NCBI GenBank assembly: GCA_014376915.1
Contig: JACMQP010000287.1
Coordinates: 1 to 26,588, forward strand
DNA length: 26,588 nucleotides
From: Ramlibacter sp.
Lineage (GTDB): Bacteria > Pseudomonadota > Gammaproteobacteria > Burkholderiales > Burkholderiaceae
Direction of reading: 5' to 3'
Position 1 is the stretch's first letter. Each line of letters starts with the position of its first letter. Both the position numbers and the translations under genes were made by a program. Shown here in pieces: positions 10,047 to 26,588 of the stretch. The notes beneath the pieces are model-generated. The model did no database searches. It saw only the letters and a program-made list of their open reading frames with translations, and had not been told where the DNA came from.

Positions 10047-10110
10047 ATGCCTACGCTTGATTCACCAGGCCGGACCCTGTTTCAGCCTGGCGCTTCAACG
10101 GAGGAATGCC

Positions 10111-10866
10111 ATGTTTGACCTGTCTGTCCAGACCACCCAGCCCACCTCGCCGTCGTTTGCCGACGCAATGATCGGGCGGCCGTCCAACAGCGCCCGGCCC
10201 TATCACGGGCCCGAGCGCCGCACGGCCATGGCCGGCGCGCGGCACTGGCTCGCGGCCACGCTCGACGAGCTTGACTACGGTGTGTTGCTGCTGCACGGCG
10301 ACGCGCAAGTGCTGCATGTCAACCACGCGGCGAACATCGAGCTCGATGCACGACACCCTCTGCAACTGTTCGGTAACCAGTTGCGCGTGCGGCGTGCCCA
10401 AGACGTGGCGCCCCTCCACGACGCACTGTGCAGCGCCGCGCTGCGAGGCCTGCGCAAACTGCTGACGCTGGGCGACGAAGCCCACCGGGTCAGTGTGTCG
10501 GTGGTGCCGCTGCCTTCACAAGGCACTGACGACGCGCCCGTGGTGCTCGTGGTTCTGGGCAAGCGCCAGGTCTGCGAGGTGCTGTCGGTGCAGGGCTTCG
10601 CACGCAGCCACGGCCTGTCTGCGGCGGAAACCCGCGTGCTGGCCCTGCTGTGCCACGGCACACCACCGACCAAGATTGCGGCGCAGTTCGGCGTGGCGAT
10701 CTCGACCGTGCGCTCGCAGATCGGCAACATCCGCATCAAGACCGGCGCCGAAAGCATCCGCGCATTGGTGCGCCAGGTGGCCGTGCTGCCGCCATTGATG
10801 GGCGTGCTGCGCGGCGAGCCCCGCGTGGCCGCCGCCTGGAATGACGCGGGCTTGATCGGCGCCTAG
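10111..10866 (+). CDS. LuxR-family transcriptional regulator with PAS-like sensor region
   Basis: A 251-residue DNA-binding regulator. The C-terminal LuxR/GerE helix-turn-helix spans about 168-216 (LSAAETRVLALLCHG, then KIAAQFGVAISTVRSQIGNI). The central part (about 45-150, LDELDYGVLLLHGDAQVLHVNHAA) reads like a PAS fold, so it may sense a small ligand or redox state. It is not an acyl-homoserine lactone receptor and lacks a receiver domain. ATG 10111 follows a strong GGAGG at 7 nt. It is 113 bp upstream of the Crp/Fnr-type gene on the same strand. Target genes and ligand are unknown, and autoregulation through the upstream inverted repeats is possible. Confidence 0.9.
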   Translation: MFDLSVQTTQPTSPSFADAMIGRPSNSARPYHGPERRTAMAGARHWLAATLDELDYGVLLLHGDAQVLHVNHAANIELDARHPLQLFGNQLRVRRAQDVAPLHDALCSAALRGLRKLLTLGDEAHRVSVSVVPLPSQGTDDAPVVLVVLGKRQVCEVLSVQGFARSHGLSAAETRVLALLCHGTPPTKIAAQFGVAISTVRSQIGNIRIKTGAESIRALVRQVAVLPPLMGVLRGEPRVAAAWNDAGLIGA

Positions 10867-10979: not shown

Positions 10980-11651
10980 ATGCCGACCGCACGAAAGAAT
11001 GTTGCCGCCCTGCCGCCCGCGATCGACCCCTGCGACGTGCTGCCCGACGCCCTGCGCCAGCTCGCAGTGCGGGGCGACCTGCGACGCTACCGAAAGGGCG
11101 TGACGCTGATCCATGAAGGCGAGCAAGGTGATGTCCTGTACATCCTGCTGGCCGGCCGCGTGCGCGTGTTCGGCAGTGGCGACAACGGCCGCGAGATCAC
11201 CTATGGCACCTACGGCGCGGGCGAATACCTGGGCGAAATCAGCCTCGACGGCGGCCCGCGCTCGGCCAGCGTGACGACGCTGGAGCAAACCGACTGCGCA
11301 CTGGTGACCCGGCAGACCCTGCTGCTGCATATCGCCGAGCACCCCGAGTTCGCCTTCGACCTGCTGGCCAAGGTGATCCGCCGTGCACGTGCCGCCACCC
11401 TGAGCACCAAGCAGTTGGCGCTCAACGATGTGTACGGGCGGCTGGTGCTGCTGCTCAATTCATTGGCCATGCCCCCGGTGGGCGGCATCCGGTTGATCGC
11501 CGAGCGCCTCACGCACCAGGAAGTGGCGAACCGGCTCGGGTGCTCGCGGGAGATGGTGAGCCGGTTGATGAAGGACCTGGAGGGGGGCGCCTATGTTCGC
11601 CCCCAAGACGGAGGCCTGCTGCTCTTGCAACGCCTTCCCGTCAGGTGGTAG
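10980..11651 (+). CDS. Crp/Fnr-family transcriptional regulator
   Basis: A 223-residue regulator with an N-terminal cyclic-nucleotide-binding beta-barrel (about 20-115) and a C-terminal winged helix (about 170-220, recognition part LTHQEVANRLGCSREMVSRLMKDLE at 177-201). The phosphate-binding cassette is recognisable (LGEISLDGGPRSASV, 84-98, with E86, R94 and S95), so binding of cAMP or a related nucleotide is plausible. There are no clustered N-terminal cysteines, so it is not an FNR-type iron-sulfur sensor. ATG 10980 gives a normal-length protein. The next gene on the same strand, 159 bp on, encodes a class III cyclase, which suggests a possible nucleotide source. Upstream DNA has phased repeats and a palindrome that may be its binding sites. 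Confidence 0.93.
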   Translation: MPTARKNVAALPPAIDPCDVLPDALRQLAVRGDLRRYRKGVTLIHEGEQGDVLYILLAGRVRVFGSGDNGREITYGTYGAGEYLGEISLDGGPRSASVTTLEQTDCALVTRQTLLLHIAEHPEFAFDLLAKVIRRARAATLSTKQLALNDVYGRLVLLLNSLAMPPVGGIRLIAERLTHQEVANRLGCSREMVSRLMKDLEGGAYVRPQDGGLLLLQRLPVRW

Positions 11652-11692: not shown

Positions 11693-11810
11693 TGCGCAGG
11701 TCCGGAAACCTCAAGCAACGGCGCAGAAAACGCTCTGGCCGGTAGCAGCGCAGCGGCGATTTGTCTCAGAATGCGTGCCATTCGTCGGCAGCGAGTCGAC
11801 CAAGGCGAAC

Positions 11811-14800
11811 ATGTCAGCCTCAACACAGCCAGCAGCCCCTGACGACGCGAACGCGTCGAGGAGCCGCGTCGTCGAACCCGATGACATCGGCCAACGCCGA
11901 TATTTGACCGTGTTGTTCGCGGACCTGACAGACTCGACGCGCCTCGGCGACGTGATGGAGGCCGAACACTACGCGGCGATGCTTCACGCGCTGCGGCGAC
12001 TGTGCCGCGAAATCATCCCGAAGCACGGCGGCTGCATTGCCAGGCTTCAAGGAGACGGCGCCCTGGCGATCTTTGGCTACCCGCAATCGATGGAAGATGA
12101 CGGCCGCCGCGCCGCCGAGGCGGCACTTGAATTGCACGACGCGGTGACCCGGATTGCGGTCGAAGGGGACCGGTTGGTGGTCGGCCGCCTGTCGATGCAT
12201 TCCGGCATTCATGCGGGCCTGGTGTATGTCGCCGACGGCGACGTGGAGCGCGGTCGATTCGAGGTTCTGGGCAATGTGCCCAACGTGGCCGCGCGCTTGT
12301 CCGACCTGGCCGGTGCCGACGAGATCTATGTCAGCGAAGAGACCCTCGGGCCTGAATCCCGCTTCTTCGCCACCAGCGCGCGTCGGGTCGTCAACGTCAA
12401 GGGCTACGCCCCGCCGCTGGCCGTCTTCAGGATCCTGGGGCGGGCCCCGGTGCAGCGGCGATTCGATGCGAGCTTCTTGCGCGGCTCCGCGCCATTCGCC
12501 GGCCGTGAAATCGAGCGCCGCACACTTCGCAATGCCCTGCAGCAGGTGCTGTCCGGCACGCCAGGTTGCATTGCCATTTCAGGCGGGCCAGGGGTGGGAA
12601 AGACACGCTTGCTGGAGGAACTGGTGCATGACGCCCTCGAAGCGAACTGCATGACGCTGCGCGGTTACTGCGAAGGGTATCTCGGCGCCGAGCCATTGCA
12701 GCCGTTCTTGCAGATGCTGCGCACGCTGCGAGCGGCCCGCGTGGACGCCCGGACGGACCCCGAGGAACCGGCAGTCAGCCTTCTTCGCGCGGCTTTTGGC
12801 CAGTCCATCGACGCCATCCGTTCCGTCTTCGATTCATTGGCGGCGGGCCGGCCCTTGCTGCTGGTGCTCGATGACTGGCAATGGGCCGACAGCGTGAGCC
12901 AGCAAGTCCTCGATGCCATCCTGTCGCTGAAGCGCCCGATCCTGGTGCTGCTCGCCACCCGCCACATCGGCGCCGACGGGGCCGAACCGGCGCACGCAAG
13001 AACCATGGCTCTGGCGCCACTCGATTCGGGTGACGCGGCCCGGACCATGGCGTACCTGCTCCCGGAAGCCGACCCCTTCGTGATCGCGAAGATTCACCGT
13101 TACGCCGGCGGCAACCCGCTCTTCATCGAAGAGTTGTGCCATGCGGCCCGCGCCGAAGGCGGCTCGCGTCCGATCGAAGACATTCAAGGGGGCAGTGCCT
13201 GGCTGAACGCGCTGGTCGAATCGCGCGTGAGCCGTCTGCCGCCGTTGCTGTCTGAAATTGTTCGCGCCGCCGCCGTCATTGGCACCGTCTTTCCGGCCAG
13301 CCTGCTGGAGCGCATCACCGGCCATGGCGAACACGATCCGCTGCTGCGCGAGCTGGCCAGGCAAGACTGGATCTTCCCGGCCGAATCACAGGGCATGTTG
13401 CGGTTCAAGCATGGCATCACCCGCGACGTCATCTACGCAGGCCTTGGTCTGCATCATCGCCAGGTCATGCACCGCCGCATTGCGGCTGCGTTGAATGAAG
13501 CCGGCCAACTCGCCGGCGGTGAGGACGTGCTTGAACGGCTGGCTTACCACTGCGCGGCGGGTGAAATGCCGGTCGAGGCGGCGCGCCATGCGGAGCTTGC
13601 AGGCGACAAGGCGATGGCCGCCTTCGCGCTCGACCGCGCCCGCGCCCAGTTCTCGGCCGCACTGAAGGCCTTGGATGGCCTGCCTTTGAGCGCGCGCGAA
13701 GACCAATTGCAATGGTGCACCGTGGCGCAGAAGTTGGGCATGGCCTGCGTGTTCGACCCGCTGGCACTGGCCGACGGCGTTGCCATCTTCGAACGCGGCG
13801 TTGATTTGGCACGCCAATCCGGCAGCGCCGAGGTCCTCGCGCGGGCGCACTACTGGCTGGGGTACATCTGCTATGCCAAAGGCCGGGCGCGCGAGGCCAC
13901 CGACCATTGCAAGACGGCGCTCCGCCTGGCCGAACAGCTCGGCGACGGGCGCCTCGCGGCCCAGGTTCGCGCCACATTGGGCCAAACGCTGGCAAGCGCC
14001 GGCGACTACGACGCTGCGCTGCTCTTGCTCGACACCGCCATCGACAGCAAGCGGGCCCGCGCCAAGCCCGGTGGCAGCGTCGCCGTCGGGTCCGCCTACG
14101 CGCTGGCGTGCAAGGGCAGCGTGCTCGGCGACCGTGGCCTCTTCGACGACGCCGATGCGTGCTTTGCGCAGGCCCTCGAGTTGCTGGGTGACACGGTTCA
14201 CCAGGTGGCGAGTTCGGTGCGCAACTGGGTCAGCGCCGTCTACCAGTGGCAGGGGCGCTGGGAAGAGGCCGAAGCGATGGCGGCGGGATCGGTGCGGATC
14301 GCCGAGCACGTGAAAAGCCGGCAACTGCTGGCCATGAGCCGCGCCCTGTGGGGCTATGCCAACTGGGTTGTCTCGCAACGGCCCGAGGCCTTGCTGATCG
14401 TGCACGACGCCACCGCCTGGATCGAGGCTCGCAAAGGCGCGCTCGTCACATCGCTCAACTACGGTTGGCTGGTCGATGGGGCCGTGTCGTTGGGGCGCGT
14501 CGATGAAGCACGGCGGCACGCCGCGCGCCTTTTCGTCCGGGCCCGCCAGCACGACCGCATCGGCGAGGCCATGGGCTGCAGGGCGCTGGCCCGCGCGGCG
14601 GCGGCCGCGAACGACGATGTGGGTGTTGAACACTACCTTGGGCTGGCCCAGCGTTCGGCGCAGTTGCGCCACTCGCCGCACGAACAGGCCAAGACGCAAC
14701 TTTGTCGAGCCGGCATAGAGATCGAGCGCGGGCACCCGCGCGAAGCTCGCGCGCCGCTCGACGCCGCGTGCGAAGCCTTTGCACAAATGCGGATGTCATG

Positions 14801-14840
14801 GCACCTGCAACAAGCGCAAGCGCTGCGCTTGCGCCTGTAG
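11811..14840 (+). CDS. Class III nucleotide cyclase - AAA/NACHT-like ATPase - TPR protein
   Basis: A 1009-residue multidomain signalling protein. Residues about 30-210 form a class III adenylate/guanylate cyclase domain, with metal-binding D38 (FADLTDST) and D82 (QGDGALAIFGYP) and transition-state N158 and R162 (NVPNVAARL). The usual adenine-selecting Lys and Asp positions hold R78 and E151. An ATPase domain follows, with Walker A GGPGVGKT (258-265) and Walker B PLLLVLDDWQWAD (348-360). The rest, about 550-1009, is helical and TPR-like. The architecture matches the bacterial AAA-ATPase/cyclase regulator family. ATG 11811 is preferred over GTG 11775. The last 45 bases overlap the end of the opposite-strand peroxidase-fusion gene. 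The protein is probably cytosolic, as no membrane segment is seen. Confidence 0.9.
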   Translation: MSASTQPAAPDDANASRSRVVEPDDIGQRRYLTVLFADLTDSTRLGDVMEAEHYAAMLHALRRLCREIIPKHGGCIARLQGDGALAIFGYPQSMEDDGRRAAEAALELHDAVTRIAVEGDRLVVGRLSMHSGIHAGLVYVADGDVERGRFEVLGNVPNVAARLSDLAGADEIYVSEETLGPESRFFATSARRVVNVKGYAPPLAVFRILGRAPVQRRFDASFLRGSAPFAGREIERRTLRNALQQVLSGTPGCIAISGGPGVGKTRLLEELVHDALEANCMTLRGYCEGYLGAEPLQPFLQMLRTLRAARVDARTDPEEPAVSLLRAAFGQSIDAIRSVFDSLAAGRPLLLVLDDWQWADSVSQQVLDAILSLKRPILVLLATRHIGADGAEPAHARTMALAPLDSGDAARTMAYLLPEADPFVIAKIHRYAGGNPLFIEELCHAARAEGGSRPIEDIQGGSAWLNALVESRVSRLPPLLSEIVRAAAVIGTVFPASLLERITGHGEHDPLLRELARQDWIFPAESQGMLRFKHGITRDVIYAGLGLHHRQVMHRRIAAALNEAGQLAGGEDVLERLAYHCAAGEMPVEAARHAELAGDKAMAAFALDRARAQFSAALKALDGLPLSAREDQLQWCTVAQKLGMACVFDPLALADGVAIFERGVDLARQSGSAEVLARAHYWLGYICYAKGRAREATDHCKTALRLAEQLGDGRLAAQVRATLGQTLASAGDYDAALLLLDTAIDSKRARAKPGGSVAVGSAYALACKGSVLGDRGLFDDADACFAQALELLGDTVHQVASSVRNWVSAVYQWQGRWEEAEAMAAGSVRIAEHVKSRQLLAMSRALWGYANWVVSQRPEALLIVHDATAWIEARKGALVTSLNYGWLVDGAVSLGRVDEARRHAARLFVRARQHDRIGEAMGCRALARAAAAANDDVGVEHYLGLAQRSAQLRHSPHEQAKTQLCRAGIEIERGHPREARAPLDAACEAFAQMRMSWHLQQAQALRLRL

Positions 14841-17800
14841 CACCGGCAGGTTTGCAAGCAGCGCGCCGGCGAACTTCGCGGTGAGCTTCGCGAAGCCGGC
14901 GCGGCTGGCATGCAACTCGTTGTCCCAGTCCCTGGCGTAGCTGGCCGCGGCGTTGGACAGCGTGCCGGTCAGGTTGACATGGAAGACATGCGTCTTGAAT
15001 CGGGGCAACGCCGCCACCCGGGCCTGCATGTCGTTCAGGCGCGAGATCAGCGTGCACATCGGGGCAATGCCGTCGAGCGGGTAGTTCGGGTTCGGCGGGT
15101 AGTCGTAGCCGGCTTCCTTGAAGGCCGGGTACAACCAGGCCAGCAGCGGCGCGGTGACGCCAGCAATGAACCGGCCGTCCGGAACGGGGAAGTCATAGCC
15201 GTGCAGAAACACTGGAATCGGAACGCCCGACGCGAAGATACATTCGGCCGTGATGCGGTCCAGCACGTGTTCGAGCCAGCACTGCATCAAGCCATCCACG
15301 GTCGAGGCGACCGCCGTTTCGTCGAGCACCGGCTGGCCGGCGCCCTGTCGATTCAGCAAACCGGTCAGCCGTTCTTCGACCACATCGTTCCCCGCCACCG
15401 ACAGCAGAATGGCGGCCGGCGGATTGCCGCGAACGACCATGTCCTTCACCTTGGCGCAGAGCCGATCGATCCGGAACGAACTCGCGCTGGCTTGGCTGCA
15501 GGCCAGCGGGGTCAAGTCTCGGCCCGCGTCGCTGTAGAAGTCGAAGAGCCGACTGCCCTTGATGGCCAGGTTGACGAGTTTGAAGCCGTGCTCGGTGGCC
15601 AGACCCTCGGCGAGGTTCTGCGGCCTCCCCAAGGGACCGTAGGTCTTGTAGCAGAGCCAGGAGTCACCATCGGCCACCAGGGTGTGCCCGGCGCCGAGAC
15701 CCGATGAGCCCTTCGGCGTGGCCCGCGGCCGGGCCTTCGAAACCCCGCGCAGCCGGGCCGCAACCAGATCGCCCTCCAGCGTCAGCGCAAGCGGCGCCAC
15801 GCTGGGCCGCACTGACTCCTTGACCTCCAGCAAGGCCGTCACCGTACCGAGCAAGGTGCCCATGGCGGCCTCGTAGGCGGGACAGGCGTGGCTGTGGCCG
15901 GCGGACTTTTTTCGCTCGCCGCCGAAGACCGGGTAGACATCCGGGTCGCCGGCTTCCAGGCATTGGTGGGTGGCCGAGACGATGGACACCACGACCTTGT
16001 CGCCCGGCCGCACCCGCTCGTCGCCGAGTTTGTGGTGGCGCGTGGCGGTACGCCACACCAGCTCTGGCGAGGGCCGCAATTGCATCGCCTTGCGGAGCGC
16101 AGGCTCCAGCAGCTCCTCGGCCATGGCCAACGTGTCAGCGCTGCGGCCAGCCCATGCCGCGCGGAGCGTCCAGAAGCTGCCCTCGCGCAGCCATTCGTCG
16201 ATCGACAGGCGCAGGTTGCCGTCCACCGTCGGCAAGAAGCCCATCAGCACACCGACCATGGTCCGTGCCGCAAGGTCGTCCTGGGTCGGCACGGGCACTG
16301 CGGGGCGTGGAAAGGCGGCAAGGATTGCCTTTGCCAGGGGCGCGCGGGCGTTCAGCACCGGCGTGACGCCGGGGTCGTCCCGATGACGTTTCACCAACTC
16401 GACAAAGGCCTTCTGGAGCGCCTGGCCGTACTGGATGCCGTACGCCTCAGCCGCCTGCCCGGGCCGGGGCTGGAAAATGTAGCGCGACGGTGCAGTGAAA
16501 TGGCCCGGGTAGAACGGTGGCTGCCCCGGCGCCCAGTCCCAGCGCGCGCCGCCGGTCTGGATTTCGCACTTCTCGACCGGCAGGCCGAACCACTCGTGGC
16601 ACAGCGCCGCCAGCGTTTGATCGACCACCTCCTTCACGTCGAGGTTGAGTTCCCAGTGGATCTCGCCGAAATCACGGCTGAGTTCCTGCTCGAACCCGAT
16701 CATGTTCGTGATCGCCTTCGTGGCCGCCTGGCGGGCGCTTGTGAACGCGTCGGTCTTCGTCAACGCGCCGATGGCGGCGTTGATCGCGGTGGCCGGGTCG
16801 TGCCGGGGACAGCCGCCGCGCTGGCCGTCGAGCCCGAGGTAGATTTCCCCGATCGACTGCGTCATGCGCTCGCGGTAGCCGCTCACGGAGTAAAGCCCCT
16901 CGTCGTTCGACAAGACCTGTGCGCCGAGGCGGCGGTCAGCGACGAGCAGGCCGTACGGGGTGCGCAGCACGCCGCCGCAGCGGTAGCGAATGGCGGCCCA
17001 CACCCCGGCACTGTCGAAGGTGCGCTGCGCCTCGGGGTCTTCGAGCACTGCCTTCCAGCCGTCGGCCGCGAGTTCGGCGCCACGCTCGTGTTCGAGCGTG
17101 GTCAGCTCCATGATTCGTTTCCAGCCATCGACCGCCGACCACACCGGTGTGGGCACGGTGCCGGCCAGTTCCCTGCCGGTCTGGGCCATCTTGTGCAGCA
17201 CGCTAATCGACGGCGTGAACAGGTAGGCGCCCCATTCCAGCCGCACGAACGGCCGGGCGTCGCCGAGCAGGTCTGGCGAGCCGTCGAGCGCGATCCGGTG
17301 CACCTTGCCGGCGTGTTCAAAGCGAAAAGACCGCTGCTGCTCGTTTGGCGCCACGCCCAGAAACGGATCGCTCTGGCCGGAATACCCGCCGGCGCTGTTG
17401 CCGCCGCTGACCCAGCGTTGCACGACTTCAAACTGCTCGGCGATGCTGGCGTTGTAGGCCATGAACACCATGCCGCGTGGCTGCGCGCCGGAGCCGGCCT
17501 CCGCAGCGTTGTAGGTGGGCCCGTACGACATGCCTCTGCGCATCAGGCGCGGGGTGCGCCCGCCCGGCGGCGGCAGCAACTCCGGGTCGTCTTTGTGGCG
17601 CGGGTTCGCGCGGCGGATGTGGGCGTGAAATGGGCACACGCTGCCGGGCGGATCTTCGTCAACGTAGTCGAAATCGTTGCCCCGCCCCGGCGCCGCCGCC
17701 AATGCGTCGCCGGCCTGCCAGCGGCCCATCATCTTTGCCAGAATCAGGGGGGCGTCGAGCCGGGTCTCCTTGCTCGCGATGGCCACGGCATGGTTCAAGG

Positions 17801-19475
17801 CCTCGACATCCTGGCTCAGTTTGCGAATCACCAGGAAGCTGCCGTTGTGCAGCCAGCGGTCGCGCTCGCGGATGAGGTCAGGATCGGGCGCCGTGCCAGG
17901 GTTGCGCGGCAGTTCGGCGGCGTTCGCATAGCCGCACAGGAACTCACCGAGCTGCACCTGGTTGCGGTCGTAGATGACGCCGTTCTTGGCGGGGTCGAGC
18001 ACCGGGTCCGAGCCTTCGCCGTCAACAAAGCCGAAGTGTTCCATCGGCTTGCGCTCGTTGCTGAAGTTCCGCACCATCGGTTGCACCGACAGCAACACCA
18101 CACCCGCGTGCCCTTCAAGGAGTTTTGTCACGGGGCCGAACAGTGCATCGCCGGGTTCCAGTGCCGCACCAGCGCTGGCAGGGCCCGCACCCATGCGCAA
18201 TTGCACGATCACATGGACGGCCGACAACTCGACCAGGCCTGCGCCCTGCGTTGCGTTCCAGTTGCGCGCCGGCAGCCGCCAGCGTCGGGGGTGGTTGAGC
18301 CTGAAGTCACCGAGCAGGCTGGCGCGCGCCTCCATGCCCTCCTGGAACTCCTGTGGAAACAACCCGATCTGCGGCTCCGACAACCCCACCGCACGCAAGC
18401 CCTCGCAGGTGAATGCGATGTTCAGGAACGGCTGGCTCGCATCGAGCGGGCGGCCTTCCCGGGTGATGCCGGGATGGATCGCATCGAGAAACTTCGCTGC
18501 GGCCGCCGGGCCGTCGAACGCCAGCAGCAGCAGGCAGCCGTGGGTCACGTCCGGGTAGGCACTCAGGATGCCACCCTGCACGTCTGTCGGGGCATCGGGC
18601 TGCGGGGTGCTCCTGGGCAGCGGCGGCGCGGCACGTTCCTCGACTTCCTTCAACAACCAGTCGATCTGCTCCGAAAACCGGACGCGCCCACCGTGCACCA
18701 CCTGGTCCAGTTCACGCCGCTGGTAAAGGCGGATGAACTCCTGCAGCAGATCACGTGCGGCGCGTTGCAGGAAGTCGCCGTCAGGCGTGCCCGGCAAAAA
18801 GTAGTGGGTCAGGCGATGCACGAGCGTCAACGCACGCAAGCCCTGGCGCCCCAACTCCTTGATGACATGAAAGTCTGCCGGGCCGACGCGCGACCAGGTC
18901 AGTTGTTCGGCGCTTTGCACCGACTGCCTTGTCGCCACCAGGTCAGCGGGCAAACGGCCAGGCACTTGGCGGTGCGCGAGTTCCTCATGGCGCAGGGACT
19001 GAACATCATCGACCGTCAGGCCCGGCATGGCGTAGAAGAAGTCGGTCTCGATCTGGACGCGGCGCACCCATTCGGCCCATTCCTCGAAGCTGTGGCCCCA
19101 GGCACTGACATAGCCCTCGGTGTTGCAGAAGATGATGTCCAGCAAGGTGCCGACGCGCTGCCAGAGCACCCGCAGATACGATTCCCAACCGCCGTCGAAG
19201 GTCACCGACAGCAGCACCTGGTCCGGTTCGACCACGGCCACGCGCACCGACTGGATCTTCCCCACCCGCTCGACACCATCGGAAAACGCGCGCAACAACG
19301 AATACTCGTGCGCCGAGCTTCGGCCGTTGTTCAAGGTCTTGAGCAGGCGCTTGACGCGTGTCTTGTAGGTCAGGGCCTCCAGTGAAGGGACCAGCCCCGG
19401 CTTGAGTCGGGCGAGCAGCGTCAGGTCGCTGGAGCCCACCAGTGTCTTCGTTTTGACGACCAGGTCTTTGCGCAT
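14796..19475 (-). CDS. Giant fusion: DyP-type peroxidase - P450-like domain - SGNH hydrolase
   Basis: A single 1559-codon frame with no internal stop. Residues 1-290 are a domain I do not recognise (FDGGWESYLRVLW at 94-106 is its clearest block). About 296-770 is a DyP-type heme peroxidase with the hallmark GFVDGEGSDP (482-491, catalytic D485), CPFHAHIRRANPR (614-626, proximal heme ligand H619) and RRGMSYG (646-652, distal R647). About 775-1220 looks like a cytochrome P450: RTPYGLLVADRR near 838, YSVSGYRERM near 862, RTATRHHKLGDERVRPGD near 1142 and a heme-Cys-like GHSHACPAYEAAMG (C1198). About 1262-1540 is an SGNH hydrolase: GDSW (S1272), G1307, AGND (G1362, N1363) and DNELH (H1522). There is no signal peptide. 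The start has GGGAGAGG upstream. Substrates are unknown; joint oxidation and ester cleavage of one compound is conceivable. Confidence 0.9.
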   Translation of the reverse strand: MRKDLVVKTKTLVGSSDLTLLARLKPGLVPSLEALTYKTRVKRLLKTLNNGRSSAHEYSLLRAFSDGVERVGKIQSVRVAVVEPDQVLLSVTFDGGWESYLRVLWQRVGTLLDIIFCNTEGYVSAWGHSFEEWAEWVRRVQIETDFFYAMPGLTVDDVQSLRHEELAHRQVPGRLPADLVATRQSVQSAEQLTWSRVGPADFHVIKELGRQGLRALTLVHRLTHYFLPGTPDGDFLQRAARDLLQEFIRLYQRRELDQVVHGGRVRFSEQIDWLLKEVEERAAPPLPRSTPQPDAPTDVQGGILSAYPDVTHGCLLLLAFDGPAAAAKFLDAIHPGITREGRPLDASQPFLNIAFTCEGLRAVGLSEPQIGLFPQEFQEGMEARASLLGDFRLNHPRRWRLPARNWNATQGAGLVELSAVHVIVQLRMGAGPASAGAALEPGDALFGPVTKLLEGHAGVVLLSVQPMVRNFSNERKPMEHFGFVDGEGSDPVLDPAKNGVIYDRNQVQLGEFLCGYANAAELPRNPGTAPDPDLIRERDRWLHNGSFLVIRKLSQDVEALNHAVAIASKETRLDAPLILAKMMGRWQAGDALAAAPGRGNDFDYVDEDPPGSVCPFHAHIRRANPRHKDDPELLPPPGGRTPRLMRRGMSYGPTYNAAEAGSGAQPRGMVFMAYNASIAEQFEVVQRWVSGGNSAGGYSGQSDPFLGVAPNEQQRSFRFEHAGKVHRIALDGSPDLLGDARPFVRLEWGAYLFTPSISVLHKMAQTGRELAGTVPTPVWSAVDGWKRIMELTTLEHERGAELAADGWKAVLEDPEAQRTFDSAGVWAAIRYRCGGVLRTPYGLLVADRRLGAQVLSNDEGLYSVSGYRERMTQSIGEIYLGLDGQRGGCPRHDPATAINAAIGALTKTDAFTSARQAATKAITNMIGFEQELSRDFGEIHWELNLDVKEVVDQTLAALCHEWFGLPVEKCEIQTGGARWDWAPGQPPFYPGHFTAPSRYIFQPRPGQAAEAYGIQYGQALQKAFVELVKRHRDDPGVTPVLNARAPLAKAILAAFPRPAVPVPTQDDLAARTMVGVLMGFLPTVDGNLRLSIDEWLREGSFWTLRAAWAGRSADTLAMAEELLEPALRKAMQLRPSPELVWRTATRHHKLGDERVRPGDKVVVSIVSATHQCLEAGDPDVYPVFGGERKKSAGHSHACPAYEAAMGTLLGTVTALLEVKESVRPSVAPLALTLEGDLVAARLRGVSKARPRATPKGSSGLGAGHTLVADGDSWLCYKTYGPLGRPQNLAEGLATEHGFKLVNLAIKGSRLFDFYSDAGRDLTPLACSQASASSFRIDRLCAKVKDMVVRGNPPAAILLSVAGNDVVEERLTGLLNRQGAGQPVLDETAVASTVDGLMQCWLEHVLDRITAECIFASGVPIPVFLHGYDFPVPDGRFIAGVTAPLLAWLYPAFKEAGYDYPPNPNYPLDGIAPMCTLISRLNDMQARVAALPRFKTHVFHVNLTGTLSNAAASYARDWDNELHASRAGFAKLTAKFAGALLANLPVLQAQAQRLRLLQVP

Positions 19476-19598: not shown

Positions 19599-20570
19599 CT
19601 ACCGGGACACGCTGCGTGGCGGCTCGGCTGGCGGGTTCGCCTGCGCGCGAGGCGGCTCGAACCGCTGCGCCGGCCTCGCCGCCCGCGCATAGAGCGGCGC
19701 CACCTTCGGCAGGTTGACCTCGATGTCATGGATGCGCGTCGGGCCCGACGGGTGCGTGCTCAACCACTGCGCCGGTGCCGCCTTGTTCGCGGCGGCCATC
19801 TTCTGCCACAGCGTGACGCCGGCACGCGGGTCATAGCCGGCGCGGGCGGCGAGCTCCAGCCCGACCAGGTCGGCCTCGGACTCGTCTTCACGGCCGAACT
19901 TGAGCGTCAGCAGCTGGCCGCCCATGTCGGCGAGGTAGCGCCCGCCGTTGCCCAGGCCGAGCAGGGCCGAGCCGATCTCGATCGCACCACGCGTGACCAT
20001 GGACTTGCCCATGCGCTCGCGGGCGTGTTCGCGCAGCGCATGGGTCATCTCGTGGCCCATCACCATCGCCACTTCGTCATCGCTGAGCTTCAACTGGTCG
20101 AGGATGCCGTAGAAGAACGCGATCTTGCCGCCCGGCAGGCAGAACGCGTTGATCTGCTTGCCGCCGATCAGATTCACTTCCCAGCGCCACTGACGCGCGC
20201 GGTCGTTCCACTCGAAGGTGTAGGGGATGAGGCGCTGCGCGATGGCGCGCAGCCGCACCACCTGCGGGTGGCCATCGGGCGCCAGCGCGTTTTGCTGCGC
20301 GGCCTTCTGGCGCATCTGCGCGTACTGCTGCACGCCGGCCTGCTCGATCTGCTCGGCCGAGACGAACTGCGCCAGGCTCGACTTCGGGCCGACCTCGACG
20401 CCCTCGCGCGCCCACGCCGGCACGGCCAGAGCGCCGGCGGCGGCAAGCAGGCCGCCGGTGAACAATCGCCGCGCGTGCAGGGCGCAGCCACAGCCCGGCA
20501 CATGCAAGGTGTCGGCGCTGGCCAGGGTCGGGAACACGCGCAGGGGTGCAGGGTTTTTCATGAGGTTCAA
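19599..20570 (-). CDS. M48-family zinc metalloprotease, exported
   Basis: A 323-residue peptidase related to the periplasmic M48 proteases BepA and LoiP, which act in outer-membrane protein quality control. The zinc site HEMTH is at 173-177 and the third ligand is probably E230 in EDESEADLVGLELAARAGYDP. The N-terminus has a twin-arginine-like start (ARRLFTGGLLAAAGALAVPAWA, about 33-54) that predicts export, perhaps folded via TAT. The C-terminal 30 residues are Pro/Arg-rich. Unlike BepA there is no clear TPR domain. It lies 129 bp after ampG and 123 bp before the peroxidase fusion on the same strand, so it may share transcription with either. Confidence 0.92.
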   Translation of the reverse strand: MNLMKNPAPLRVFPTLASADTLHVPGCGCALHARRLFTGGLLAAAGALAVPAWAREGVEVGPKSSLAQFVSAEQIEQAGVQQYAQMRQKAAQQNALAPDGHPQVVRLRAIAQRLIPYTFEWNDRARQWRWEVNLIGGKQINAFCLPGGKIAFFYGILDQLKLSDDEVAMVMGHEMTHALREHARERMGKSMVTRGAIEIGSALLGLGNGGRYLADMGGQLLTLKFGREDESEADLVGLELAARAGYDPRAGVTLWQKMAAANKAAPAQWLSTHPSGPTRIHDIEVNLPKVAPLYARAARPAQRFEPPRAQANPPAEPPRSVSR

Positions 20571-20699
20571 GACCCGGAAATCGGGCCGCAGTTCACGATG
20601 GTGCGGGCGGCGGGCGCTCGCAAGCTTCGACAGACCGAGCGCCGGGCGGCCGTCCCGTTGGGGGACCGTCTGGCGTACCCGCCGGACGAAGGGCTCCGT

Positions 20700-22295
20700 T
20701 CAGGCATCCGCCGCTGCGGCATTCGGGTCGTGTTCCAGCGCCCGAACCGTGGCGCGCATGAACCACAACATCACCAACGCCGGCACAGCCGCGAACGTCG
20801 AGACGATGAAGAACGCCGGCCAGCCGATCGATTCGGCCAGCACCCCGGCCAGCGGGCCGACCCAGACCCGGCCGACCGACGCGAACGCGCTCAGCAGCGC
20901 GAACTGGGTGGCCGTGAAACGCTGGTTGCACAGGCTCATCAGGAACGCGAGGAATGCGGCCGTACCCATGCCGCCAGACAGGTTCTCGCCGGCCACGGCG
21001 AACAACAGCCCGCCGTCGACCTCGGTCGCGTGGGCGAGCTTGACGAAGCCCCAATCGAAGGCGGGAATCGTCAGCCCCGGCAAGGCGCCGCGGCCGCTCA
21101 CGGCCAGCCACCAGAAACACATGATGCCCATCATCTGCAGCACACCGAAAAGCATCAGCGCGCGCCACAGCCCGATGCGCAACATCAACGCGCCGCCGAG
21201 CAGCGCGCCGCCGATCGTCAGCCACAGGCCGATGATCTTGTTGACCACGCCGACCTCGGCAATGCTGAAATGCATGGCCTGCAACAGGAAGGGCGTGACG
21301 AGCGACAGCGAGAACGCATCGCCGAGCTTGTAGAGCACCACGAAGCCGAGAAAGGCCGCCGCGCCGGGCTGGGCGAAGTAACTGTTCAGGCCGCCAAGCA
21401 GCGTCTCGAAGCGCGCGGCACGTGCAGCCCAGGCGGCCAGCGGCAGCGTGAAGGCAATGCCCAGCAGCAGGGCGAAGAGGTCGATCCACTTGCCCTGCAA
21501 CGGGACCGAGAGGCGCCCCGCAGCCAGCAGCGGCGCGAGCAACGCATCGGCAATGCCGCGCCCGAAGCGGTTGCTGAGCGCCACGCCGACGCCAACCGCC
21601 AGCATCACGGCCAGAAACCCCAACACGTCACGCCGCGCCACGCTGGTCGGCAACTCGACGGCCTTCAGCTTCGGCAGCGCCGTGGCCGACAACACCGCCG
21701 CGCCGATCATCAACGCCGCCATGAAGCGATACACCTCGGGCCAGCTCCAGCCACCGCCCTGGGCCGGATCGACCCAGATGAAGGCCACGCCGCCCGACAG
21801 GATCATCGCGACCCGGTAGCCCAGCACCAGCGACGACGAACCCAGGCCGCGCTCGCTCGCCGGCAGCAGGTTGGTGCGGTAGGCGTCGATCACGATGTCT
21901 TGCGAGGCCGAGATGAACGCGACCAGCACCGCAATCACCGCGAAGGCACGCGGTGCGCCGGTCGGCGATGTGCCGGCCATCCACCACAGGCTTGCGGCCA
22001 GGGCGAGCTGGGTCAGCACCAGCCACCCGCGGCGCCGCCCGAGCCAGGGCAGCTCGAAGCGGTCCATCAGCGGCGCCCAGAGGAACTTGAAGGTGTAGGG
22101 CAAGCCGACCAGGCTGAGGAAGCCGATGGTGGCAATGTCGACCCCGGAAATGCTGAGCCAGGCCTGCATCGCCTGCCCGGTCAGCGCCAGCGGCAGCCCG
22201 GAAGCAAAGCCCAGCACCGTGACCACGGCGAGCCGGTGAACGGCTTGCGCGCTGAAACGGGGGTTCAATGCTGCGCGGCCGGCCGGTAAGGTCAT
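20700..22295 (-). CDS. ampG: AmpG-type muropeptide permease (MFS)
   Basis: Inner-membrane transporter of the major facilitator superfamily. AmpG imports GlcNAc-anhydroMurNAc peptides released by cell-wall turnover into the cytosol for recycling, and in many bacteria thereby controls AmpC beta-lactamase induction. The 531-residue protein has the AmpG signature LGFASGLPLALTG (about 28-40), GVDIATIGFLSLVGLPYTFKFLWAPLMDRF (about 51-80) and SQDIVIDAYR, and about 12-14 membrane segments. It is slightly longer than the E. coli protein (491). ATG 22295 is the only start near the family N-terminus. No Shine-Dalgarno sequence is visible, and a TAGAAT lies just 7 nt upstream. It is co-directional with the upstream anti-sigma gene, 85 bp away. 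Confidence 0.93.
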   Translation of the reverse strand: MTLPAGRAALNPRFSAQAVHRLAVVTVLGFASGLPLALTGQAMQAWLSISGVDIATIGFLSLVGLPYTFKFLWAPLMDRFELPWLGRRRGWLVLTQLALAASLWWMAGTSPTGAPRAFAVIAVLVAFISASQDIVIDAYRTNLLPASERGLGSSSLVLGYRVAMILSGGVAFIWVDPAQGGGWSWPEVYRFMAALMIGAAVLSATALPKLKAVELPTSVARRDVLGFLAVMLAVGVGVALSNRFGRGIADALLAPLLAAGRLSVPLQGKWIDLFALLLGIAFTLPLAAWAARAARFETLLGGLNSYFAQPGAAAFLGFVVLYKLGDAFSLSLVTPFLLQAMHFSIAEVGVVNKIIGLWLTIGGALLGGALMLRIGLWRALMLFGVLQMMGIMCFWWLAVSGRGALPGLTIPAFDWGFVKLAHATEVDGGLLFAVAGENLSGGMGTAAFLAFLMSLCNQRFTATQFALLSAFASVGRVWVGPLAGVLAESIGWPAFFIVSTFAAVPALVMLWFMRATVRALEHDPNAAAADA

Positions 22296-24597: not shown

Positions 24598-26565
24598 TCA
24601 GACGAGCACGCGATGGGTGCGGCCGGGATTGGGGTCGAGCTTGAGCAGGGTGCCCAGCGTTTGATGCCGCGGCTTGGGGCGCGTGGCCTTGCGCACATGC
24701 ACGGCGTGACCATCGCGACGCTGCATGGTGACGGTGACCCGGCGCTGCGTGGCCAGCGCCTGACGCAGCGTGTTCCAGCTGTCGTTGACGCCGTGAGCCT
24801 TGAGTTGCAGGCGCAGCGTGTGCACGAAGTGATAGGCCAGCACGCTGATGAACAAATGCCCTTCGACGCGTCGATCAATTCGGTGGAACACCGGGCGCAG
24901 GCCCAGGTCGGTCTTCAGTGAGCGGAACACCGACTCCAGCTCGGTGAGCATGATGTAGGTGCGCCACAGCGTGGCGTTGTCCTGATCTACAAGCGTCGTG
25001 CGCAGACAGTACACGCCCGGATGCGCAGCCGCGCTGCCGGGCTTGATGCGTTTGACCCAGGTGATGGCGGTGACGAGTTTGCCCTCGGGGTCGGTGGCCA
25101 CCGTGATCTCGTAGTGCTGGGCCGCGCGCGCGAAGCGCTGCTTGGCGCGGCCCAGGCGCTGCATGAAGGTGGCCACGTCGGTGCCGCGCGGCTTGCTCAG
25201 GCCGGCCTGCAACTTGGTCAGCGCAGCCTCCAGGCCACTGGCCTTGGCCGTATCGATGGCACGGTCCTTCTCCTCGCGCGCGGGCGAGTGGCAGTACAGC
25301 AGCACATGGCCCTGCGCATCCAGCACGCGTTGCAACTGGATCGTCACCTCGCCGGCCGATTGCACCTCGGTGGCCAGCGCCGGGTCGAACTGGCGCTCGC
25401 GCAGCTTGGAGACGACCACGTAGTGATAGCCCTGCTCGCGCAGCCAGGTCAGATTGGCCTCGGTGGCGATCCCCGCGTCCATCACCACCGTCGCCCCAGG
25501 GGCCGCGTCCAGGCCCGTGAGCATGCCTTGGAGCGTGGTGGGCTCGCTGGCGTTGCCAGCGAAGAACTGCACGCGCCGCACGAAGCCACTGCCGTCCAGT
25601 GCCATCGCCAGCGTCACGAGCGGGCAGTCGCTACGGCACTCCTTGCTGTGGCCGCGTTTGGCCTTGCTCACCCCGGCGGCCACGCCCTCGAAGTAGGTGT
25701 TGGTCAGGTCATACAGGGTGATGGTCTGAGGCCCCAAGCCGAACATCGAGCGCGCTTGGCCGAACAGGTGCTCCTGCAAGGCGTCGCAGTGCTTGTACAG
25801 CGCGTCCGATGCGCGGTACAGGCGGTTCAGGTCCATCTTCTCGAAGTCGTAGTCAATGAGTTCACCCAGCGCCGACGTGTCCTTCAACCAGGCGTGGGTG
25901 GCCCGCTCGCTGCCCGGCTGGGCCATGCGCGCAACGATGTTGCCAACAGCCGCGGCGATCTGCGGGCGGTTCAGGCCCAACTCGCTGAGCTTGTCCTCCA
26001 GGCCGCATTGGCGCATTGCCGACAGCGCAGCGTGCTCCACGCCCACGCTGCGTGGGTCGACCAGTTCAAGCGAGTCGAGATCGACCTCTTGGTAGCGCGC
26101 GAGCTCGCCGGCTTGACTGGCCGGGCTGCGCGGTGGACCGCTGGGTGGCTTGGCGGCCTTGGCAGGCGCTGGGGCGGCGCGATCTGCGCGCACCGTGGGC
26201 GCCGCGCCCAGGCTGGGCACGGCAGGCTTGCGGGCAATGATCTGGGCTGCAAAGCGTTGTGCGAAGGCTTGCACCTCCTCAGGCAGCGTTGCCTCCAGCA
26301 TCGAGGCCTGCCCGTGCACCAGTTCGTCGATGCGCTGAGCCAGCGCGGGCCAATGCACTTGAGGCAGATCGAAGTGGCTACCCAGGTTGAGTAAGGTGGT
26401 CTGCTTGACGGCGCTACCCACTCGCTCGCTGTGCACCAGCCGGAATGTGACATAGGGCTCGCCGGACGTGCGATTGCGGGTTTGGGTGCGCCGGATGAAC
26501 ATCTCTCGATACTGCACGAAACGGCGGCTCGTGGAGCATACGTTACAAACTATTATGGCACTACA
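24541..26565. mobile_element. IS1634-type insertion sequence (ends approximate)
   Basis: One transposase gene between related terminal sequences. The inverted pair TGTAGTTGCC (24557-24566) and GGCACTACA (26557-26565, which reads TGTAGTGCC on the other strand) differs by one inserted T. In addition TATGGCACTAC occurs in direct orientation at 24541-24551 and 26554-26564 and may be a target duplication or part of the ends. Family members are known for long, variable target duplications, so the outer borders cannot be fixed from this window. Confidence 0.6.
24598..26502 (-). CDS. IS1634-family transposase
   Basis: A 634-residue DDE transposase of the IS4/IS1634 group that cuts and inserts the element. 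The catalytic residues are D265 (TLYDLTNTYFEG), D342 (VVMDAGIATEANL) and E523 (LESVFRSLK, with K530 seven residues on, the family's E-6-K spacing). The insert between the second D and the E is long, as usual for this group. The N-terminal 135 residues include an Ala/Pro-rich linker. ATG 26502 is preferred; the frame extends to 26571 but that part overlaps the right end of the element and looks non-coding. The gene is intact, so it is potentially active. Confidence 0.9.
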   Translation of the reverse strand: MFIRRTQTRNRTSGEPYVTFRLVHSERVGSAVKQTTLLNLGSHFDLPQVHWPALAQRIDELVHGQASMLEATLPEEVQAFAQRFAAQIIARKPAVPSLGAAPTVRADRAAPAPAKAAKPPSGPPRSPASQAGELARYQEVDLDSLELVDPRSVGVEHAALSAMRQCGLEDKLSELGLNRPQIAAAVGNIVARMAQPGSERATHAWLKDTSALGELIDYDFEKMDLNRLYRASDALYKHCDALQEHLFGQARSMFGLGPQTITLYDLTNTYFEGVAAGVSKAKRGHSKECRSDCPLVTLAMALDGSGFVRRVQFFAGNASEPTTLQGMLTGLDAAPGATVVMDAGIATEANLTWLREQGYHYVVVSKLRERQFDPALATEVQSAGEVTIQLQRVLDAQGHVLLYCHSPAREEKDRAIDTAKASGLEAALTKLQAGLSKPRGTDVATFMQRLGRAKQRFARAAQHYEITVATDPEGKLVTAITWVKRIKPGSAAAHPGVYCLRTTLVDQDNATLWRTYIMLTELESVFRSLKTDLGLRPVFHRIDRRVEGHLFISVLAYHFVHTLRLQLKAHGVNDSWNTLRQALATQRRVTVTMQRRDGHAVHVRKATRPKPRHQTLGTLLKLDPNPGRTHRVLV

Positions 26566-26588
26566 TTTCACTCTTTGAGCGACCCCCA

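Follow-up and report, generated by a model that had tools for sequence, protein, structure and literature searches.

A DyP peroxidase–P450-fold fusion and its convergent nucleotidyl cyclase: a possible signal-controlled lipid-oxidation system in Proteobacteria

A contig of Ramlibacter sp. (JACMQP010000287.1; the whole stretch analyzed, 26,588 nucleotides long, is called the window here) carries a single uninterrupted open frame (14796..19475, minus strand) that joins an N-terminal domain, a DyP-type peroxidase, a P450-fold domain, and an SGNH/GDSL hydrolase. We find that the constant core of the family to which this gene belongs is the N-terminal domain–DyP–P450 part together with a nearby, mostly convergent gene for a nucleotidyl cyclase–AAA–TPR protein (Table 1). 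The three-domain DyP–P450–SGNH chain is only one form of this wider family, in which SGNH is dispensable. The two genes make up a conserved, apparently unnamed module present in Alpha-, Beta-, and Gammaproteobacteria and in one Myxococcota metagenome-assembled genome (MAG), and the module looks like an undescribed signal-controlled lipid-oxidation system. An earlier note on this DNA had described one open frame with three domains, and these are indeed present in the window in an order that recurs on many contigs; as a description of the unit it had missed the N-terminal domain and the cyclase gene lying tail to tail with the fusion.

A search of predicted proteins returned 445 relatives, and the 120 listed are mostly about 1550 or about 1250 amino acids (aa) long, the shorter ones matching only the part before SGNH. 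In GTDB genomes, a scan found 127 relatives, and 80 of them serve here as the related loci; locus counts throughout rest on these 80 of 127, and protein counts rest on the 120 listed of 445. Samples drawn from these, each with the window added, comprised 36 homologues (A1) and 62 homologues (A2/A3) from the listed proteins, 40 (A4) and 26 (A6) of the 79 locus slices, and 18 of 18 (A5). The loci come from Burkholderiales, Bradyrhizobium and its relatives, Sphingomonas, a few Gammaproteobacteria, and one deltaproteobacterial (Myxococcota) MAG. Piscinibacter sakaiensis 201-F6 (L023) is among the carriers, two loci (L035 and L036) are identical in sequence, and one MAG contig (L065) is titled Bordetella parapertussis, a label that may be wrong.

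By frame type, 61 of the 80 loci encode the N-terminal domain, DyP, and P450 with no SGNH detected by BLAST, 13 encode all four domains, and 4 have a separate SGNH; the other two frames are cut and show DyP, P450, and SGNH (L039) or the N-terminal domain and DyP (L075). The frame is split in L022 and L024. Because the identical domain order is found on many other contigs, an assembly or frameshift artifact is ruled out as the origin of the fusion, and the joining of separate genes by a frameshift, which the earlier note had raised against its own reading, is not what we see. Among open-licence PMC papers, we found no description of a DyP–P450 fusion or of such a module with a cyclase, in agreement with the earlier remark that no characterized enzyme has this order.

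The cyclase-cluster gene is the strongest conserved neighbor of the fusion. It lies nearby in 71/80 loci: convergent within 400 bp in 59, in tandem in 2, and elsewhere in the vicinity in 10. The 59 convergent pairs have a median gap of 11 bp, and 22 of them overlap; these lengths are approximate, and genes in the related loci are mechanically called open reading frames. All 61 adjacent cyclases, the window's included, keep the metal-binding aspartates D50 and D94 and the P-loop lysine. Eleven whole genomes carry 13 fusion copies between them; there, the cyclases that beat E 1e-80 are precisely those next to a fusion, and the best found elsewhere in these genomes reach E 1e-38 or weaker. The three fusion paralogues of Variovorax sp. 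WS11 (L084, L085, and L002), one without SGNH, one with it fused, and one with it separate, each have their own convergent adjacent cyclase.

Genome surveys that scored 2 to 5 candidates per genome gave the same picture. In one family, fusion and cyclase both occur in the same 2 of 149 genomes, on two contigs in one of them. In a second family, with 299 genomes, the fusion occurs in 26 and the cyclase in 30, and 26/26 fusion genomes are among the latter (Fisher p 1.5e-33, with no correction for kinship). The cyclase is convergent on the same contig for 26 of the 27 fusion copies in this set, within 500 bp for 19, and that of the 27th copy was seen in the whole-genome survey. Distances among fusions correlate with distances among their cyclases (Mantel correlation 0.57, with 0/1000 permutations as high and species history uncontrolled). 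The partner cyclase is an orthologous type of its own that is tied to the DyP–P450 gene. Conservation establishes this link; the direction of signaling is inferred. A Crp/Fnr-like gene lies near the module in 9/80 loci, as does a LuxR-like gene in 9/80 (both assigned by cluster and named by eye). In 14 loci of Roseateles/Pelomonas-type genomes (e.g., L050:21332-22582), the cyclase–AAA–TPR gene is preceded on its strand by a gene for a protein of about 416 aa that looks cyclase-like by eye; the one copy checked has no Pfam match.

The cyclase domain matches the PADLOC models of Pycsar cyclases (best E 8.3e-18), and the module could be read as stress- or defense-type signaling with Pycsar-like logic, the oxidase/lipase being a damaging effector switched on by what the cyclase makes. 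The combination of a dedicated cyclase with a lipase/oxidase would suit such a role, as would the patchy distribution (the 2/149 genomes above, for example) and the presence on a plasmid. However, any class III cyclase should match Pycsar models, PADLOC gave no match for the fusion or for the one patatin tested, no defense genes were recognized among the cluster representatives viewed, and the genes are mostly convergent rather than arranged as an operon. A search of viral contigs confirmed no relative, which also counts against this role; we regard it as very unlikely. A phage or virus origin of the module was set aside on the same search. Among plasmids, 80 records matched, none over more than 80% of the query, and most of the listed rows are plain DyP genes. 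On Sphingopyxis plasmid pDB-1 (L082:4944-10394), a Tn3-family transposase gene ends right before a DyP–P450 gene that lacks the N-terminal domain and is followed, as in the window, by cyclase and Crp/Fnr genes.

The peroxidase domain of the window is recognized as DyP by both the family profile and the fold, the fold-search rows labeled VIA covering residues 291-768 only. Its distal Asp (D485, in GxxDG) is kept in 77/79 loci and 118/119 further homologues, the proximal His (H619) in 79/79 and 119/119, and the distal Arg (R647) in 78/79 and 117/119. Profile, fold, and near-invariant residues thus bear out the earlier assignment of this domain and of its three residues.

The domain that follows has a P450 fold and an invariant candidate thiolate, C1198, as the earlier note had proposed. 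Wherever these places are covered, H1196 and C1198 (HxC) are present in 77/77 loci and 118/118 proteins, and R1142 is present in 78/78 and 118/118; R1142 and H1196 occupy the places of heme-propionate ligands. The K-helix ExxR motif, whose places were mapped through a profile alignment with P450s of the PDB, is lost: E1129 and R1132 occur jointly in 1/78 loci (L069) and 0/118 proteins. The acid–alcohol pair of the I helix, placed by eye on the alignment, occurs in 0/78 loci and 0/118 proteins covering that place. The I helix of the window reads MGFLPTVDGN, in which P1082 is Pro in 75/78 loci and G1079 is nearly invariant too, and the position before the Pro is mostly P/L/I/V rather than Arg. 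Pfam PF00067, which had been suggested as a check, matches 0/41 family members at E 0.01, although the fold itself is confirmed. We do not class the domain as a canonical P450 because ExxR, the acid–alcohol pair, and the Pfam match are all missing; the fold and the heme-ligand residues are those of a P450, but the features expected of a monooxygenase that activates O2 are missing. Even without the lipid part of our proposal, it is of interest that a family of P450 fold escapes Pfam and has lost ExxR.

These losses would also fit a P450 domain retained as a scaffold or regulator, like the P450-derived activators of glycosyltransferases, with only DyP (and the hydrolase) catalytic. Along with the missing ExxR and the 0/41 Pfam matches, residues 1114-1201 match the NCBIfam model of a P450-derived activator (TIGR04515) at E 3.8e-5, far below its cutoff. 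Such activators, however, are not known to have the heme Cys, and a dead heme site should drift. Here, every sequence that covers C1198, H1196, and R1142 keeps them, and P1082 and G1079 are almost as constant. We consider a purely structural role quite unlikely.

The N-terminal domain matched no Pfam family in any of 27 members (0/27). Its core (residues 9-168) is homologous to small stand-alone proteins that adjoin DyP genes (profile match, E 3e-23); we discarded the idea that it is a diverged DyP half, since its profile does not match that of DyP (probability 0.1 of 100). On plasmids, operons are found in which such a small protein (28% identity, E 2e-15; 27%, E 4e-11) stands with a DyP gene and a catalase-like gene. 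A five-member profile of the catalase-like proteins matches catalases, 3e4w (which we take to be a mini-catalase), and coral allene oxide synthase; used alone as a PDB query, the Agrobacterium protein found nothing at E 0.001. The split operon of an Agrobacterium pusense plasmid has genes for oleate hydratase and 3-hydroxyacyl-CoA dehydrogenase nearby and a thioesterase gene on the other strand, and that of an Acinetobacter lwoffii plasmid adjoins a 3-hydroxyacyl-CoA dehydrogenase gene.

Among 194 genomes from the order of L045 (titled Pseudomonadales), the small protein occurs in 5 and adjoins DyP in 5/5; 3 of these have the catalase-like gene, 1 lacks it in the stretch read, and 1 has a DyP–P450 gene convergent with a cyclase. 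The layout of N-terminal-like gene, DyP–P450 gene, and convergent cyclase is present in 4/194 genomes and kept in 4/4. The N-terminal domain and DyP seem to be an old pair, joined by either the P450 or a catalase-like protein as a third partner. One distant DyP–P450 relative, the only one read, gives a weak, subthreshold Pfam P450 match (E 0.005). All four gammaproteobacterial loci of this split lineage have a conserved gene of about 403 aa beyond the cyclase on its strand (L095:605-1816, L105:12230-13441, L106:12660-13871, and L107:482-1690) and, on the other side, a response regulator and a kinase gene (named by eye).

The hydrolase is the variable partner. Where covered, S1272 is kept in 15/15 loci and 64/64 proteins, H1522 in 14/14 loci and 65/66 proteins, and N1363 in 14/14 loci and 60/71 proteins, the remaining proteins being possibly misaligned. 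The Asp expected three positions before the catalytic His is replaced by Asn (N-E-L-H in the window) in 61/64 proteins and 12/14 loci, with D in the others and an acidic residue (Glu/Asp) next. PF13472 matches 14/19 members, the window's own copy not among them. Against PDB sequences, a profile found GDSL matches that were all weak (best E 0.0023), and P450 rows filled the fold-search lists. The three SGNH residues named by the earlier note are thus kept.

SGNH is fused in 14/80 loci and in a fifteenth (L012) whose frame is cut by the contig end inside this domain. Another 5/80 have a separate adjacent SGNH gene, downstream in 4 (in L004 and L024 overlapping the fusion end by 4 bp) and upstream in L069, where a profile search places its end just 5' of the fusion. 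A patatin-like gene is near 9/80 loci, all without SGNH, directly upstream on the same strand in 8 and on the far side of the cyclase in L074; the one copy checked against Pfam was confirmed as patatin. A fused, adjacent, or patatin-type hydrolase is thus present in 29/80 loci. On a FastTree phylogeny with a midpoint root and long branches, which makes counts of gains and losses rough, 15/15 fused rows (window included) and 4/5 separate SGNH rows fall inside one starred clade of 34, and 7/9 patatin rows fall in a starred sister clade of 8; L012 is labeled "none" there although its cut frame begins the SGNH domain. Split, swapped, and fused forms of the hydrolase amount to a natural experiment on the substrate class. 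Bradyrhizobium agreste, whose own fusion (L013) is SGNH-less, has an orphan SGNH gene, related to the fused type, on another contig (L086:9150-10136).

We tentatively propose, with somewhat less than even confidence, that the fusion is a di-heme enzyme of the cytoplasm, making or converting lipid hydroperoxides, fed by a lipase, and coupled to cyclic-nucleotide signaling. The hydrolase would free an acyl chain or cleave a product ester, the DyP domain would react with peroxide or make a lipid hydroperoxide, and the P450 domain would rearrange or use the hydroperoxide by isomerase or peroxygenase chemistry. A NAD(P)H-dependent monooxygenase is not what we envisage, because the O2-activation residues are missing and there is no evident redox partner nearby. 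With its AAA/TPR part, the cyclase might sense the inducing state; the cyclic nucleotide that it would make could adjust transcription where a Crp/Fnr gene is present. In sum, this would be a bacterial oxylipin-type enzyme of the cytoplasm under cyclic-nucleotide control.

Inspection by eye, with no predictor run, shows no signal peptide, so the enzyme should be cytoplasmic, and an extracellular polyester or lignin enzyme is disfavored on the same ground. The earlier idea of peroxide-driven oxidation followed by ester cleavage fits the missing acid–alcohol pair and the hydrolases of 29/80 loci, with the polyester or lignin role now less likely. We favor a lipid or fatty-acid substrate, the part of the proposal held least firmly, because of the patatin partner and the split relatives near fatty-acid genes. 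According to excerpts of PMC11719350, PMC13049297, and PMC5617202, CYP74/DOX-CYP (dioxygenase–cytochrome P450) and catalase-related enzymes convert fatty-acid hydroperoxides without a reductase. Both types of third partner resemble such converters, which, with the lipase partners and the fatty-acid neighbors, favors lipid-hydroperoxide chemistry.

Several observations weigh against this proposal. Neither SGNH nor patatin is fused or adjoining in 51/80 loci, so the hydrolase is not essential; among these 51, L025, L053, and L075 end inside or right after the fusion, and L044 and L077 have an SGNH frame 5-7 kb off. No fatty-acid genes were identified around the other split operons, the catalase-like profile is nearer to ordinary catalases than to allene oxide synthase, and Pfam does not recognize the Agrobacterium copy by itself. 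We know of no DyP enzymes that make fatty-acid hydroperoxides. Heme might be bound weakly in the absence of ExxR. An ExxR string is nevertheless found somewhere in that part of the sequence in 2/78 loci (one being L069, at the expected place) and 8/118 proteins. A distant P450 part (L095:5720-8695) keeps an acid–alcohol-like pair (I-helix STDTT), which suggests that the pair was lost later in the window's lineage. The cyclase is unseen in 9/80 loci, of which 6 end within 1.4 kb and 3 (L051, L054, and L064) do not; 4/299 genomes have a cyclase with no fusion match at the same threshold; and fusion and cyclase share a nearest neighbor in only 28/61 cases.

DyP enzymes classically oxidize phenolics, and GDSL enzymes deacylate many substrates. 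The fusion might accordingly carry out cytoplasmic, peroxide-driven tailoring or catabolism of an aromatic compound or secondary metabolite, DyP oxidizing a phenolic, the P450 acting as an H2O2-dependent peroxygenase, and SGNH removing an acyl group. A single-sequence PDB search lends this some color, its P450 matches including CYP199A4-type aromatic-acid P450s, weakly (E 0.05-0.2). Yet the recurrent neighbor-cluster representatives, viewed by eye, include no biosynthetic genes, patatin as the other hydrolase points to lipids, and the split relatives lie near fatty-acid genes. We judge an aromatic substrate unlikely.

A bolder form of the lipid proposal, possible in our view but doubtful, is that the gene pair is a bacterial analogue of an eicosanoid cascade. 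A single chain, an independent invention from DyP and an ExxR-less P450, would unite a lipase, a peroxidase that forms or uses peroxide, and a self-sufficient P450, and would have a cyclase of its own; in soil Proteobacteria, the oxidized lipid would serve as a regulated signal or be a product under the control of one. If the lipid proposal is right, fusions of peroxidase and P450 for oxidized lipids arose at least twice, from peroxidase superfamilies unrelated to each other, and bacteria couple oxidized-lipid chemistry to a dedicated cyclase.

Elsewhere in the window, genes for an M48 peptidase and an MFS transporter lie upstream of the fusion on the same strand (19599-22295, minus), and a DDE-type transposase gene closes the window (24598-26586, minus).

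Table 1. Coordinates of the fusion gene, its domains, and neighboring features in the window (RBS, ribosome-binding site; HTH, helix-turn-helix)
Feature	Position	Strand	Remarks
Whole fusion gene	14796..19475	-	1559 aa, ATG start, purine-rich (RBS-like) stretch just 5'
N-terminal domain, residues 1-290 (end approximate)	18606..19475	-	No Pfam family; core residues 9-168
DyP-type peroxidase domain, residues 291-769	17169..18605	-	D485 / H619 / R647
P450-fold domain, about residues 785-1235	15771..17123	-	C1198, R1142, H1196, P1082
Codon of C1198, candidate heme thiolate ligand	15882..15884	-	C in 77/77 covering loci, 118/118 proteins
SGNH/GDSL hydrolase domain, about residues 1263-1559	14799..15689	-	S1272, N1363, H1522
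3'-end overlap of the two convergent genes, 45 bp	14796..14840	.	Window gene coordinates
Class III nucleotidyl cyclase–AAA_16–TPR protein, 1021 aa	11775..14840	+	Pfam; conserved neighbor
Crp/Fnr-family regulator, possible cyclic-nucleotide receptor	10980..11651	+	Pfam
LuxR-type HTH protein	10057..10866	+	Pfam

Among known systems, the best-scoring solved DyP by both sequence and fold is that of Deinococcus radiodurans (8re2/8re3), a stand-alone enzyme, whereas the domain here is fused. A DyP joined to another redox domain is described in excerpts of PMC5041501, where the partner is of the pyruvate formate-lyase type and not a P450. The product of 11775-14840 has the same cyclase, AAA_16, and TPR domains as other class III cyclase–AAA–TPR proteins; its cyclase domain matches the models of Pycsar cyclases, and here the protein is tied to a DyP–P450 gene.

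CYP152 peroxygenases (OleT and P450SPalpha) resemble the P450-fold domain in lacking the acid–alcohol pair and having Pro at that I-helix place, Arg-Pro standing in for the pair in those enzymes (excerpts of PMC5377825), and CYP152B1 is among the 50 listed Foldseek matches of the domain. The Arg-Pro pattern is absent here, however: the position of the carboxylate-binding Arg is mostly P/L/I/V, ExxR is lost, and the domain is fused. Cyanobacterial catalase–heme dioxygenase and catalase–lipoxygenase fusions and the coral allene oxide synthase–lipoxygenase join a hydroperoxide-forming to a hydroperoxide-converting heme domain, as excerpts of PMC11719350 and PMC5617202 describe, and the catalase-like partner of our split relatives adds to the likeness. 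In the present family, DyP takes the place of the lipoxygenase or dioxygenase, and the P450-fold domain takes that of the catalase-like domain.

The nearest design is that of the fungal dioxygenase–P450 fusions (PpoA/linoleate diol synthase, DOX-CYP). As portrayed in excerpts of PMC11719350 and PMC13049297, these have an N-terminal heme peroxidase-type domain and a C-terminal P450 that needs no reductase, with a di-heme lipid-hydroperoxide logic, and protein-kinase-A-linked regulation is reported for linoleate diol synthase in excerpts of PMC4420034. The family described here, known from sequence alone, differs in that its peroxidase is a DyP of the chlorite-dismutase superfamily rather than a member of the peroxidase–cyclooxygenase superfamily, and in that it has an extra N-terminal domain, an optional lipase, and a dedicated bacterial cyclase.

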